A stretch of 64,000 nucleotides of DNA from the NCBI GenBank assembly GCA_002841395.1, contig PGZM01000002.1, positions 504,201 to 568,200 of the forward strand. Direction: 5' to 3'. Both the position numbers and the translations under genes were made by a program. This document shows, piece after piece, positions 1,108 through 44,350 of this stretch. The notes beneath the pieces were generated by a model that was not told the origin of the DNA, did not search any database, and saw nothing but the letters and a program-made list of their open reading frames with translations. The stretch is from Firmicutes bacterium HGW-Firmicutes-9. Its GTDB lineage: Bacteria; Bacillota; Clostridia; Christensenellales; CAG-138. Numbering within the stretch: position 1 is the first letter of the stretch; every line of letters begins with the position of its first letter.

Positions 1108-1557
1108 TTAGTTCTGCAGTTTTGCGTTCATCGCCTGAATGCGTTTCTTCATCGCGCCATACTGACCGAGCCAGACGCCGATGTAGATTACGACGAATAT
1201 GCCGATATAAAGCAGGACGCCGGTCGCATTGTGCGGCATCCATCGTGCAAAATACGCGATCGGGAACGTTGCAAGCGTGGTCACGAGCAGATGCACCAGC
1301 GTCATCTTGAGCAGGCTCCACTTCTCCGCATCCCAGATGACCGAAGCGCCCGCCCATGCCGCGCCATAGATCATCGACAGCCCTGCCTGCAGCAGTACCG
1401 CGTTGAGTTCGCCGCCCATTTGTTGCGCAAATGCCGGAACAACAGCATAATAAGCGCCATCTCCAACAAAAACCGAAATCAGAATCGTGATCACCGTGCT
1501 GCTCGCAAGACCGATCGGCATACCGAACAGACAGCGTTTGAGTATTTCTTTCCTCAT
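1108..1557 (-). CDS. DUF3021-like four-helix membrane protein
   Basis: 149 aa, four hydrophobic segments, directly downstream of a LytTR regulator (typical pair). Confidence 0.7.
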   Translation of the reverse strand: MRKEILKRCLFGMPIGLASSTVITILISVFVGDGAYYAVVPAFAQQMGGELNAVLLQAGLSMIYGAAWAGASVIWDAEKWSLLKMTLVHLLVTTLATFPIAYFARWMPHNATGVLLYIGIFVVIYIGVWLGQYGAMKKRIQAMNAKLQN

Positions 1558-1569
1558 AATAGTATCTCC

Positions 1570-2010
1570 TTATAGTCCCAATACTTGTTTGATCTTCGCG
1601 ACATACCTGCGTGAAACATAGGTCACCGCGTCGTTCTTCATCCGCACACAAATCGTTCCCGCAAAGCTCAGGTCAAACCCGCGAATCCACGCGAGATTGA
1701 CGATCTCAGCATTACTGATGCGAACGAACCGCTTCGCGTCCAGACGCTCTTCCAGCTCATACAGCCGCTGCCGCATCTGAAATCGTCCCCCCAGCGTCTC
1801 TGTGTACACCTTGCCCCCCTCGGCAAACGCGCGCAGTATCTCCTCCTGTGTGAGGATGACCGCTTCGTCCTCCCGGAACCCGACGATCACCTGCGGCGCA
1901 TCCTGTGACAATTTCCGCACGAGTTGCTGTATTTCGTCGGTCACTTTGCTGGTGCAGATCACCACCGTTGTTTCTTCACAAGCGGCGTCTACCTTTACTT
2001 CGATCTTCAC
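1570..2010 (-). CDS. LytTR-type DNA-binding response regulator without receiver domain
   Basis: LytTR features: YELEERLDAKRFVRISNAEIVNLAWI...VSRRYVAKIKQVLGL. Confidence 0.85.
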   Translation of the reverse strand: MKIEVKVDAACEETTVVICTSKVTDEIQQLVRKLSQDAPQVIVGFREDEAVILTQEEILRAFAEGGKVYTETLGGRFQMRQRLYELEERLDAKRFVRISNAEIVNLAWIRGFDLSFAGTICVRMKNDAVTYVSRRYVAKIKQVLGL

Positions 2011-2162
2011 TTGTTCACCCCCTCGTTACAAGAGCAGTATAGCCAATCAAGTTTTATTGCGCGACCGATTTGCGATAGGCGGTCGAAATTTGCATATGAA
2101 CGGCTTACATTGCAAATTCAAAGAAAAAAACGCCGCAAAGCGCGGCGCATGAAGTTATGTTG

Positions 2163-11097: not shown

Positions 11098-12105
11098 ATG
11101 AAACAGTACAAGATCGCAGTTGTCGGCGCCACAGGTATGGTCGGCAGAATGTTCCTCCGCGTACTGGAAGAGCGTAAACTTCCGGCGTCGGAATACTTCC
11201 TCTTTGCCTCCGCACGCAGTGCGGGCACTACCGTCGAATTCATGGGCAAAAAACACACCGTCCGTGAGCTGACTGAGGATGCGTTTAAAGGTCTTGGTAT
11301 TGACATCGCGCTGTTCTCCGCTGGCGGCGGTACCTCCAAGGTCTTTGCCCCCATCGTTGCCGCGTCCGGCGCGGTGGTCATCGATAACTCCAGCACGTGG
11401 CGCATGGACCCGGATGTTCCGCTCGTCGTGCCGGAAGTGAACGCGCATGCCATTCCCGAGTACAAGAAAAAAGGCATCATCGCAAACCCGAACTGCTCCA
11501 CCATTCAGGCAATGGTTGCCCTCAAGCCCCTTGCCGTGAAATACGGTCTCAAGCGCGTGGTCTACTCGACCTATCAGGCGGTTTCCGGCGCAGGCATGGG
11601 CGGCTACAGCGATCTGGAGAACGGACTGAAGGGCGAAGCGCCGAAGAAGTTTGCATATCCCATCGCGTTCAACGTGCTGCCGCAGATCGATGTCTTCCTC
11701 GACACCGGCTACACAAAGGAAGAGCAAAAGATGATCGAAGAATCCAGAAAGATCCTCGAGCTGCCGAATCTCCGCGTGACGGCGACCACCGTTCGCGTAC
11801 CCGTGTTCCACGGACACAGCGAAAGCATCAACGTCGAGTTTGAAAAGCCGTTTGAAGTCGCCGACGTTCGCAAGCTCTGGGAAGAGACGGAAGGCCTCAT
11901 CGTACAGGACGATACGGAAAAGGGCATCTACCCCATGCCGCTGTATGCCGCGGACACCGACCCGGTTTATGTGGGTCGTCTGCGCCGTGACTTCTCGGTT
12001 GAAAACGGAATCAACTTCTGGTGCGTTGCGGATAACATCCGCAAAGGTGCGGCAACCAACGCCGTGCAGATTGCACAGGAACTCATTCGTCAGTGGGAGG
12101 CGTAA
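11098..12105 (+). CDS. asd: aspartate-semialdehyde dehydrogenase
   Basis: VVGATGMVGRMFLRVLEER; NPNCSTIQAMVALKPL catalytic Cys motif; followed by dapA and dapB. Exact start uncertain (upstream TTG at 11071 possible). Confidence 0.93.
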   Translation: MKQYKIAVVGATGMVGRMFLRVLEERKLPASEYFLFASARSAGTTVEFMGKKHTVRELTEDAFKGLGIDIALFSAGGGTSKVFAPIVAASGAVVIDNSSTWRMDPDVPLVVPEVNAHAIPEYKKKGIIANPNCSTIQAMVALKPLAVKYGLKRVVYSTYQAVSGAGMGGYSDLENGLKGEAPKKFAYPIAFNVLPQIDVFLDTGYTKEEQKMIEESRKILELPNLRVTATTVRVPVFHGHSESINVEFEKPFEVADVRKLWEETEGLIVQDDTEKGIYPMPLYAADTDPVYVGRLRRDFSVENGINFWCVADNIRKGAATNAVQIAQELIRQWEA

Positions 12106-12110
12106 AACGT

Positions 12111-12986
12111 ATGTCAATCTTTCGTGGCAGCGGCGTCGCAATCGTAACCCCGTTTCAAAACGGGTCGATTGACTTCACCGCATTTACCAGACTGATCGAA
12201 CTCCAGATTGCGAATCATACGGATGCGATCATCTGCTGCGGCACGACCGGCGAAAGCTCAACCATGACGCCGGACGAACGCCTCAGCGTCATCCAGTTCG
12301 TTGTGGAGCGTGTCAACGGTCGCGTGCCGGTCATCGCCGGTACCGGCGGCAACAACACCGAAGAAGTCGTCAGCAACAGCAAGTCTGCCGAAGCCATCGG
12401 CGTAGACGGTCTGCTTGTTGTCACCCCCTACTACAACAAAACCTCTCAGGCGGGTCTTGTACGCCATTATTTCACGGTTGCAGACGCGGTGGAAACACCG
12501 ATCATCGTCTACAACGTGCCCGGCCGTACGGGATTGAATGTCCTGCCGCAAACCATGGCGGAGCTTTGCACCCATGAGAACATCGTCGGCACAAAAGAAG
12601 CCAGCGGTAACATTGAGCAGGTCGTCAACATTGCGGCGCTTTGCCCGCAGTGCGACATCTACTCCGGCAACGACGATCACGTGCTGCCCATTCTCAGCAT
12701 CGGCGGCAAAGGCGTTATCTCCACCATCGCAAACATCGTGCCAGGCGAAATGCACGCGCTCTGCGAAGCATTCTTCAAGGGTGATATTCAGCTTGCGCGC
12801 CAGCTGCAGCTGCAGTTGATCCCGCTCTGGAAAGCCGCGTTCTGCGAAGTCAATCCCATCCCGCTCAAAGCCATGATGGGGCTGATGCAGCTCTGCGAGC
12901 CGGACGTGCGCCTGCCGCTCGTTCCGCCTTCGGCTGCCAGCATGCGCCTCATCGAAGAAACGCTGAAAGGCTATGAGCTGATCTAA
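12111..12986 (+). CDS. dapA: 4-hydroxy-tetrahydrodipicolinate synthase
   Basis: GVAIVTPF; CGTTGESSTM; YYNKTSQAG; YNVPGRTGLN; GTKEASGN motifs. Confidence 0.96.
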   Translation: MSIFRGSGVAIVTPFQNGSIDFTAFTRLIELQIANHTDAIICCGTTGESSTMTPDERLSVIQFVVERVNGRVPVIAGTGGNNTEEVVSNSKSAEAIGVDGLLVVTPYYNKTSQAGLVRHYFTVADAVETPIIVYNVPGRTGLNVLPQTMAELCTHENIVGTKEASGNIEQVVNIAALCPQCDIYSGNDDHVLPILSIGGKGVISTIANIVPGEMHALCEAFFKGDIQLARQLQLQLIPLWKAAFCEVNPIPLKAMMGLMQLCEPDVRLPLVPPSAASMRLIEETLKGYELI

Positions 12987-13012: not shown

Positions 13013-14239
13013 ATGATTTCTGTGATTATCAACGGAATCTGCGGTCAAATGGGACGCGCCGTGTATGCAGCTATCCAAGCGCAGAGCGGCGTGTTTTCCG
13101 CAGTAGCGGGTGTCGATCCCTTTGACTGCACTCAATCATACAGCTGCCCTGTCTACAAGTCGCTCGACGACGTGAAAGAACAGGCAGACGTAATCATCGA
13201 TTTTTCGATTCCTGCCAGCACGCCGGAGATCCTTCGCTATGCGTTGGAGAAGAAAATTCCGGCTGTCATCGGCACCACCGGCCTTGGCGAACGCGAACTC
13301 AAGCTCATCCGTTCCGCTTCCGAACAGGTCGCGATGTTTCAAACGGGCAATATGTCCCTTGGCGTCAATCTTCAGGTCGAGCTGGTGCAGCTTGCCTCCT
13401 CTACCCTTGGCGCAAACTTCGACGTCGAAATTATTGAAACGCACCACCGCAAAAAGGTGGACAGCCCCAGTGGCACCGCTTTGATGCTTGCAAACGCCGT
13501 CTCCTCTATCTCTCCGGAGGACGAGGAACTGGTGTTTGGCCGTCACGAGAAGAATAAGCGCCGCTCCGACAATGAGATCGGCATCCACTCCGTCCGCGGC
13601 GGCACCGTCGTCGGCGAACATCAGGTGCAGTTCATCGGCAACGACGAGATCATCGAGATTTCACACAGAGCGTTTAGCAAGCAGGTTTTCGCGCAGGGCG
13701 CGCTGCGTGCCGCAAAATTCCTCGTCGGAAAAAAGAGCGGGCTTTATAACATGAAGAACGTGGTGACTGAGCACGACGCGGCTTCCCGCCTGTTCTCTCT
13801 TGAAAATCAGGCGGTGGTCATCATTCGCTCGTTTGCCAAGGAAGATGCGTTTGCGTCCCGCGTGTTCGACGTCATCGCTGCGCACGACGTGTTTGTCGAC
13901 ATGATCGCCTGCTCCGAGCCCGACGAACAGAGCCTTAGCATCGGTTTCTCGCTCAACGAGGACGATCTTTCCGAGGCGCTCAACGCCATCAATGAGCTCA
14001 CGCGAAACGGCTACGGTTGCGATATCCGTACGCATTCCGACCTGACCAAGCTCACACTGGAAGGCACCGGCATGGCGTTGCAGCACGGCGTCGCATCCCA
14101 GCTGTTTTCCACGCTGCGCAAGGAGAACATCCACATCTGGCTGATCACCACCAGCGAGACACGCATAGAGTTCTGCATCGAATCGGTGCATACGCTCCGC
14201 GCGGCGGACGCCATCCGCGAGAAGTTCAACATCGGATAA
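13013..14239 (+). CDS. dapB: 4-hydroxy-tetrahydrodipicolinate reductase with C-terminal tandem ACT-domain extension
   Basis: DapB core (GICGQMGRAVYAAI; IETHHRKKVDSPSGTA) to about residue 252, then about 145 aa resembling aspartokinase ACT pair (LTKLTLEGTGMALQHGVASQLFSTLRKENIHIWLITTSETRIEFCI). Confidence 0.93.
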   Translation: MISVIINGICGQMGRAVYAAIQAQSGVFSAVAGVDPFDCTQSYSCPVYKSLDDVKEQADVIIDFSIPASTPEILRYALEKKIPAVIGTTGLGERELKLIRSASEQVAMFQTGNMSLGVNLQVELVQLASSTLGANFDVEIIETHHRKKVDSPSGTALMLANAVSSISPEDEELVFGRHEKNKRRSDNEIGIHSVRGGTVVGEHQVQFIGNDEIIEISHRAFSKQVFAQGALRAAKFLVGKKSGLYNMKNVVTEHDAASRLFSLENQAVVIIRSFAKEDAFASRVFDVIAAHDVFVDMIACSEPDEQSLSIGFSLNEDDLSEALNAINELTRNGYGCDIRTHSDLTKLTLEGTGMALQHGVASQLFSTLRKENIHIWLITTSETRIEFCIESVHTLRAADAIREKFNIG

Positions 14240-44061: not shown

Positions 44062-44350
44062 TTATTAGAGTTCTGTGGCAAATAAAAAACGCCCTCGTTT
44101 CGGCGCTTACGCCGAAACAAGGACGATGCTCTCGCGGTGCCACCTTGTTTCCCGATGTTGAATCGGGCTCTTAACGGAAATGCCAACACATTCCCCGCGA
44201 TATAACGGTCACGACCCGTCGCAGGATACTTATCTTTCCCCTGCGCGCTCAGCGGTCCATTTGAACGATCGTTTCCTGCGGGGCTTTCACCAGCGCCCCT
44301 GCTCTCTAAGAGGTCGTATTCGTCCGTTATCTCCGCTTCACAGCTTATGG
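44062..44350 (-). ncRNA. T-box leader, predicted tryptophan specifier UGG
   Basis: minus strand AAGGTGGCACCGCGAGAGC T-box element (44127-44146 area), terminator GTCCTTGTTTCGGCG-TAAG-CGCCGAAACGAGGGC-TTTTTT, specifier TGG at 44257-44259 in CAAATGGACCGC. Confidence 0.92.

Follow-up and report, generated by a model that had tools for sequence, protein, structure and literature searches.

Bacteria are generally taken to control lysine synthesis at aspartokinase, and many species also at DapA. In aspartokinases, paired ACT domains bind lysine or threonine, which shifts the activity. DapB acts after the first step of its branch and is an unusual place for feedback; to our knowledge, it is treated as unregulated.

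Bacterial DapB is a tetramer, and the residue at position 56 of DapA is reported to decide lysine inhibition, with His or Glu giving a sensitive enzyme and Lys or Arg an insensitive one (PMC5109050). For the aspartokinases, mutations link Q298 and A279 of the C. glutamicum enzyme to feedback inhibition (PMC10464499), and positions 379-381 lie at or affect the lysine site in Corynebacterium enzymes (PMC8690038, PMC6321352, PMC10464499). The lysine-interacting residues of E. coli aspartokinase III are said to be Phe324, Ser345 and Glu346 (PMC3195717).

The window, by which we mean the whole 64,000-nucleotide stretch analysed here, contains asd, dapA and a gene in which dapB is joined to an ACT module, in that order and all on the same strand. 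The features are as follows.

11098-12105, forward strand: asd, the opening gene of the operon, which encodes aspartate-semialdehyde dehydrogenase (PF02774, PF01118; sequence)
12111-12986, forward strand: dapA; its product has Arg at the place of residue 56 of E. coli DapA and is predicted to be lysine-insensitive (PF00701; alignment to E. coli DapA; rule of PMC5109050)
13002-13006, forward strand: ribosome-binding site GGAGG of the fusion gene (sequence)
13013-14239, forward strand: DapB-ACT fusion gene, 408 aa (single open frame; full-length conservation in genus, order and class)
13013-13765, forward strand: DapB catalytic part, residues 1-251 (TIGR00036, PF01113, PF05173; fold matches DapB structures)
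13787-14236, forward strand: aspartokinase-type tandem ACT module, residues about 259-408 (PF22468, aspartokinase NCBIfams, AlphaFold model)

The single 408-aa frame claimed by an earlier, sequence-only reading of this DNA is confirmed: it begins with ATG behind the GGAGG and runs through 13013-14239 with no internal stop. That reading also took the N-terminal ~252 aa for a complete DapB, and profile searches agree for residues 1-251, over which TIGR00036 scores 207.5 bits (cut-off 122) and both PF01113 and PF05173 exceed their cut-offs. In particular, the Rossmann motif GICGQMG (GxxGxMG) is found at residues 8-14 and HHRKKVDSPSGTA, the catalytic HHxxKxDxPSGTA-type motif of DapB, at residues 144-156, and both are invariant or nearly so across an alignment of the fused family. 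The best structure matches of a full-length AlphaFold model are DapB (pLDDT 89), but its pTM of 0.66 means that the relative placement of the DapB and ACT halves is not fixed by the model. As one part of our best explanation, in which it is paired with an ACT sensor, this half is a putative reductase and probably a catalytically ordinary DapB. A further DapB-like gene in this genome is unfused (G000:C3:41784-42329; locus L002, about 1291-2079, forward strand) and scores 191.5 bits with TIGR00036, above the cut-off. It has GVGRTGS in place of GxxGxMG, lies near an rlmH-like gene, and occurs in other genomes of the genus as well.

The remainder of the protein had been read as two ACT repeats of aspartokinase ancestry starting at about nt 13803, with the proviso that a profile search might place it outside the ACT clan. 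PF22468 (ACT_9) matches the tail at 68.8 bits against a cut-off of 27, alongside weaker ACT_7 and PF01842 matches, and the ACT core begins near residue 259-264, or about nt 13790-13802, in agreement with that reading. The ACT_9 profile and the alignment span both repeats, and the tail aligns to residues about 262-411 of many aspartokinase NCBIfam models, which are their C-terminal part. It also matches solved aspartokinase regulatory chains (3l76, E 9e-22; 5yei; 2re1; 2dtj). The structure prediction, built from a 61-sequence alignment, gives the aspartokinase regulatory fold with a mean pLDDT of 93.4 and query TM of 0.83-0.89 to the leading aspartokinase regulatory chains; the best matches among solved structures include lysine- and threonine-bound C. 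glutamicum aspartokinase. A Pfam search of the 408-aa protein found no amino-acid kinase domain (PF00696). Profiles, predicted fold and the tree described below bear out the proposed ancestry and confirm, at the level of sequence and model, that the tail is an aspartokinase-derived tandem ACT module.

The fusion is not a one-genome curiosity. A survey of DapB-ACT fusions found a family across many lineages, as well as relatives whose operon keeps the two parts unfused. Within the genus, 7 of the 8 genomes carry this frame, with 81-100% identity (the remaining genome is 59% complete), and full-length matches without stops were counted in at least 58 of 297 genomes in the order sample and at least 23 of 391 in the class sample. 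Among the carriers are Christensenella sp. UBA7703 and further metagenome bins of Clostridia. Recurrence at this identity within the genus, and in many other families, puts the frame far beyond chance.

In Monoglobus pectinilyticus, asd, dapA and dapB are followed by a separate 150-aa protein (WP_102365209.1), and in many other Clostridia the ACT module is likewise its own gene immediately or shortly behind dapB, in or out of frame; some of these separate genes lie several hundred bases behind it. Where the two genes share a frame, dapB still closes with a stop codon and the gene behind it usually brings a ribosome site and a start of its own, which makes the two-gene arrangement an operon rather than a case of readthrough. 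Stop-codon readthrough is unnecessary in these lineages, since most sampled second genes are self-started and several are out of frame. In one genus (g476, loci L095-L101), dapB ends in ATG TGA with its stop inside the ribosome site of the ACT gene, which seemingly starts at a TTG behind dapB; the two genes are tightly coupled, not fused.

In a FastTree phylogeny of the modules, fused and separate DapB-linked modules form one clade (0.951) that sits beside the ACT modules of some clostridial aspartokinases. Within it, the separate modules form one clade (0.988) and the fused modules another (0.726). A slower free IQ-TREE search did not recover the fused clade and needed three changes, yet a tree with the fused clade, or with fused and separate modules as one clade, has a log-likelihood 12.6 above the free result, so a fused clade is not rejected and one fusion origin is compatible with the data. 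A single origin is allowed, not proven. Several origins, as the three changes of the free tree would have it, are not required, given the higher score of the single-clade tree. Probably, the module was at first encoded by a separate gene downstream of dapB, and loss of the dapB stop codon then joined the two. Two related cases stand apart. In family f85 (L169, 94-591, reverse strand; L170, 1329-1817, forward strand), the gene behind aspartokinase encodes a stand-alone tandem ACT protein, and in the tree these proteins fall with the aspartokinases beside them and outside the DapB-linked set. In genome G052 (L035, 1468-2694, forward strand), DapB has a 150-aa tail that can be aligned to the ACT module, although it is degenerate and no ACT profile matches it; this genome also has a second aspartokinase, of the alpha2beta2 type (L129).

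We favour, with moderate confidence, a model in which a catalytically ordinary DapB carries a C-terminal aspartokinase-derived ACT pair as an allosteric sensor for its own enzyme. The ACT modules of neighbouring chains would pair as they do in aspartokinase regulatory units, and an aspartate-family amino acid, most likely lysine, would bind at the ACT2 site that contains the TSE motif. Binding would then alter the activity or assembly of the DapB tetramer, giving feedback on the lysine/diaminopimelate branch. As operon neighbour in some Clostridia and fusion partner in others, the module is tied to DapB both ways.

Three candidate sites in the module bear on the ligand.

13838-13849, forward strand: ACT1 loop K276-A279 (KEDA), in place of C. 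glutamicum D274-K-P-G277; loop lost (alignment)
13910-13912, forward strand: C300, in place of C. glutamicum Gln298 (alignment)
14147-14161, forward strand: ACT2 motif TTSET (379-383), counterpart of the aspartokinase lysine-site TSE motif (alignment; literature on the motif)

When fused and separate forms are taken together, the module positions that hardly vary are D296, I298 and F312 and, in ACT2, K346, G351, M354, G359, T380, S381 and I385 (numbering of the 408-aa protein). The ACT2 residues, near-invariant family-wide, include the loop and the TSE motif that publications place at the aspartokinase lysine site. The genus studied here keeps both the ACT2 glycine loop (M354, G359) and the TSE motif (T380, S381, E382). 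By alignment, it has lost the threonine-site D-x-P-G loop and Gln298 of ACT1, with K276, A279 and C300 found instead, so only one type of site may work. Gln is kept at the Gln298 position in about 81% of other fusions, and of the alpha2beta2-type aspartokinases compared, about one in three or more likewise lack a complete Pro-Gly loop. Degradation of the threonine-type ACT1 side favours lysine over threonine as the ligand; aspartokinase ACT2 units share the TSE motif as a general feature, so lysine is favoured, not fixed. S345/E346 of aspartokinase III are equated with S381/E382 of the fusion by motif. In the E. coli enzyme, that motif lies in the first ACT unit. From these residue patterns, lysine is the most likely ligand of the module, a call that we put at close to even. 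Two further positions, E350 (in 96% of other fusions) and T383 (in 85%), are occupied by Val and Ile in aspartokinases and may mark a changed ligand or a contact with DapB.

Could the module bind no ligand and merely shape the oligomer or stabilise DapB? The lost ACT1 loop and Gln298 equivalent, the poor conservation of ACT1 across the family, and the L035 tail that is no longer recognised as ACT are all consistent with such a role. However, the ACT2 loop and TSE motif hardly vary within the fused family, and purifying selection acts on the ACT half as strongly as on the DapB half: the median dN/dS within the genus is 0.056 for residues 255-408 versus 0.059 for DapB, values usable only as a comparison of the two halves because synonymous sites are near saturation. 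We consider a ligand-free role unlikely.

Placement of the module nearest to the ACT modules of some clostridial alpha2beta2-type aspartokinases raises a different prospect, namely that it is a docking or trans-acting regulatory subunit that pairs with the ACT domains of the cell's aspartokinase as beta does in the alpha2beta2 enzymes, tethering DapB to aspartokinase or controlling aspartokinase instead of DapB. ACT units do dimerise in aspartokinases, and the module also exists as a free protein. Against this, the one full-length aspartokinase that the genome was found to encode belongs to another class (PRK09034) and brings an ACT pair of its own, and in the loci examined the module gene is linked to dapB, not to aspartokinase. 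On balance, docking strikes us as improbable. Replacement of a lost alpha2beta2 aspartokinase by DapB-ACT is suggested within the order but is not general, as several fused genomes also have such an aspartokinase. Finally, a sequencing or assembly artefact, a frameshift included, could have joined two parts that are adjacent separate genes in other lineages, but its chance is negligible because the same uninterrupted frame recurs in independent assemblies of the genus, in many families of the order and class, and in genomes that are a single contig (for example, G066 and G088).

Returning to the sensor model, we count in its favour the profile and fold matches, the wide conservation, the tie to DapB by operon and by fusion, the dN/dS values, the near-invariance of the ACT2 residues, and Arg56 in the neighbouring DapA. 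Counted against it are the ACT1 losses in this genus, the generality of the TSE motif, the full-length model with its loose domain placement, the unusual step for feedback, and the second DapB-like gene, a possible way around control should it prove a true DapB. We infer allosteric control of DapB with indirect support from purifying selection, from a conserved gene pair that is also found fused, and from the retained ACT2 residues.

The DapA residue offers a potential explanation for feedback at this step. At fused loci, DapA position 56 is Lys or Arg in 45 of 59, Glu in 4 and His in 0, versus His56 in 28/28 separate-gene DapB-linked loci (32 were so labelled, and the four aspartokinase loci L125, L126, L127 and L145 were left out) and Lys or Arg in 13 of 21 loci with no detected DapB-linked ACT, an association that is strong in raw counts but comprises only about three independent contrasts on the DapB tree. 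This pattern, with Arg56 next to the fusion, fits a shift of feedback from DapA to DapB. We tentatively suggest, as a possibility we hold with less than even confidence, that one clostridial clade shifted lysine feedback on the diaminopimelate branch from DapA to DapB: DapA with Lys/Arg56 is predicted to be insensitive, and DapB would have gained the aspartokinase sensor as an operon neighbour and later by fusion, yielding a lysine-gated DapB. Upstream of the operon, no lysine riboswitch, other riboswitch or T-box was found at Rfam gathering scores. Elsewhere in the window, a T-box leader lies at 44116-44350 on the reverse strand (RF00230, 96.7 bits).

Taken together, these observations suggest that, in a large clostridial group, an aspartokinase sensing tail on DapB adds feedback to lysine synthesis at an unusual step. 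A literature search that covered mainly open papers found no described DapB-ACT enzyme, and the sequence-only reading likewise knew of none that was characterised. Each part is familiar by itself; none of the papers searched describes the two combined as a regulated DapB, and the separate ACT gene is annotated merely as 'ACT domain-containing protein'. If the model is true, a widespread sensor-bearing DapB would be a third control point of lysine synthesis and would explain control of the branch in lineages with a predicted lysine-insensitive DapA. The family also illustrates clearly how a sensor module can pass from one enzyme to another in the same pathway, since relatives retain the unfused arrangement.

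Compared with known DapB (TIGR00036, PF01113, PF05173), the fusion has the same complete catalytic protein, motifs and operon place, but known DapB structures span about 215-275 residues and have no ACT module, whereas the fusion has about 150 residues more. With the beta unit of alpha2beta2 aspartokinases (C. glutamicum LysC, 3aaw and 2dtj; Thermus, 2dt9), it shares the tandem ACT fold, the order of the repeats and the ACT2 motifs. It differs in being joined to DapB with no kinase domain, in having lost, in this genus, both the Pro-Gly loop of ACT1 and the counterpart of Gln298, and in the E350 and T383 typical of the fused family. The stand-alone protein behind dapB in Monoglobus and relatives is the same module at the same operon position, but is a separate gene with its own start and usually has Tyr or Phe at 350 and Val at 383. 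CASTOR1, the arginine sensor, is likewise an aspartokinase-type ACT array that senses an amino acid without a kinase, but it is an animal signalling protein with four ACT domains and no attached enzyme (PMC5020642).
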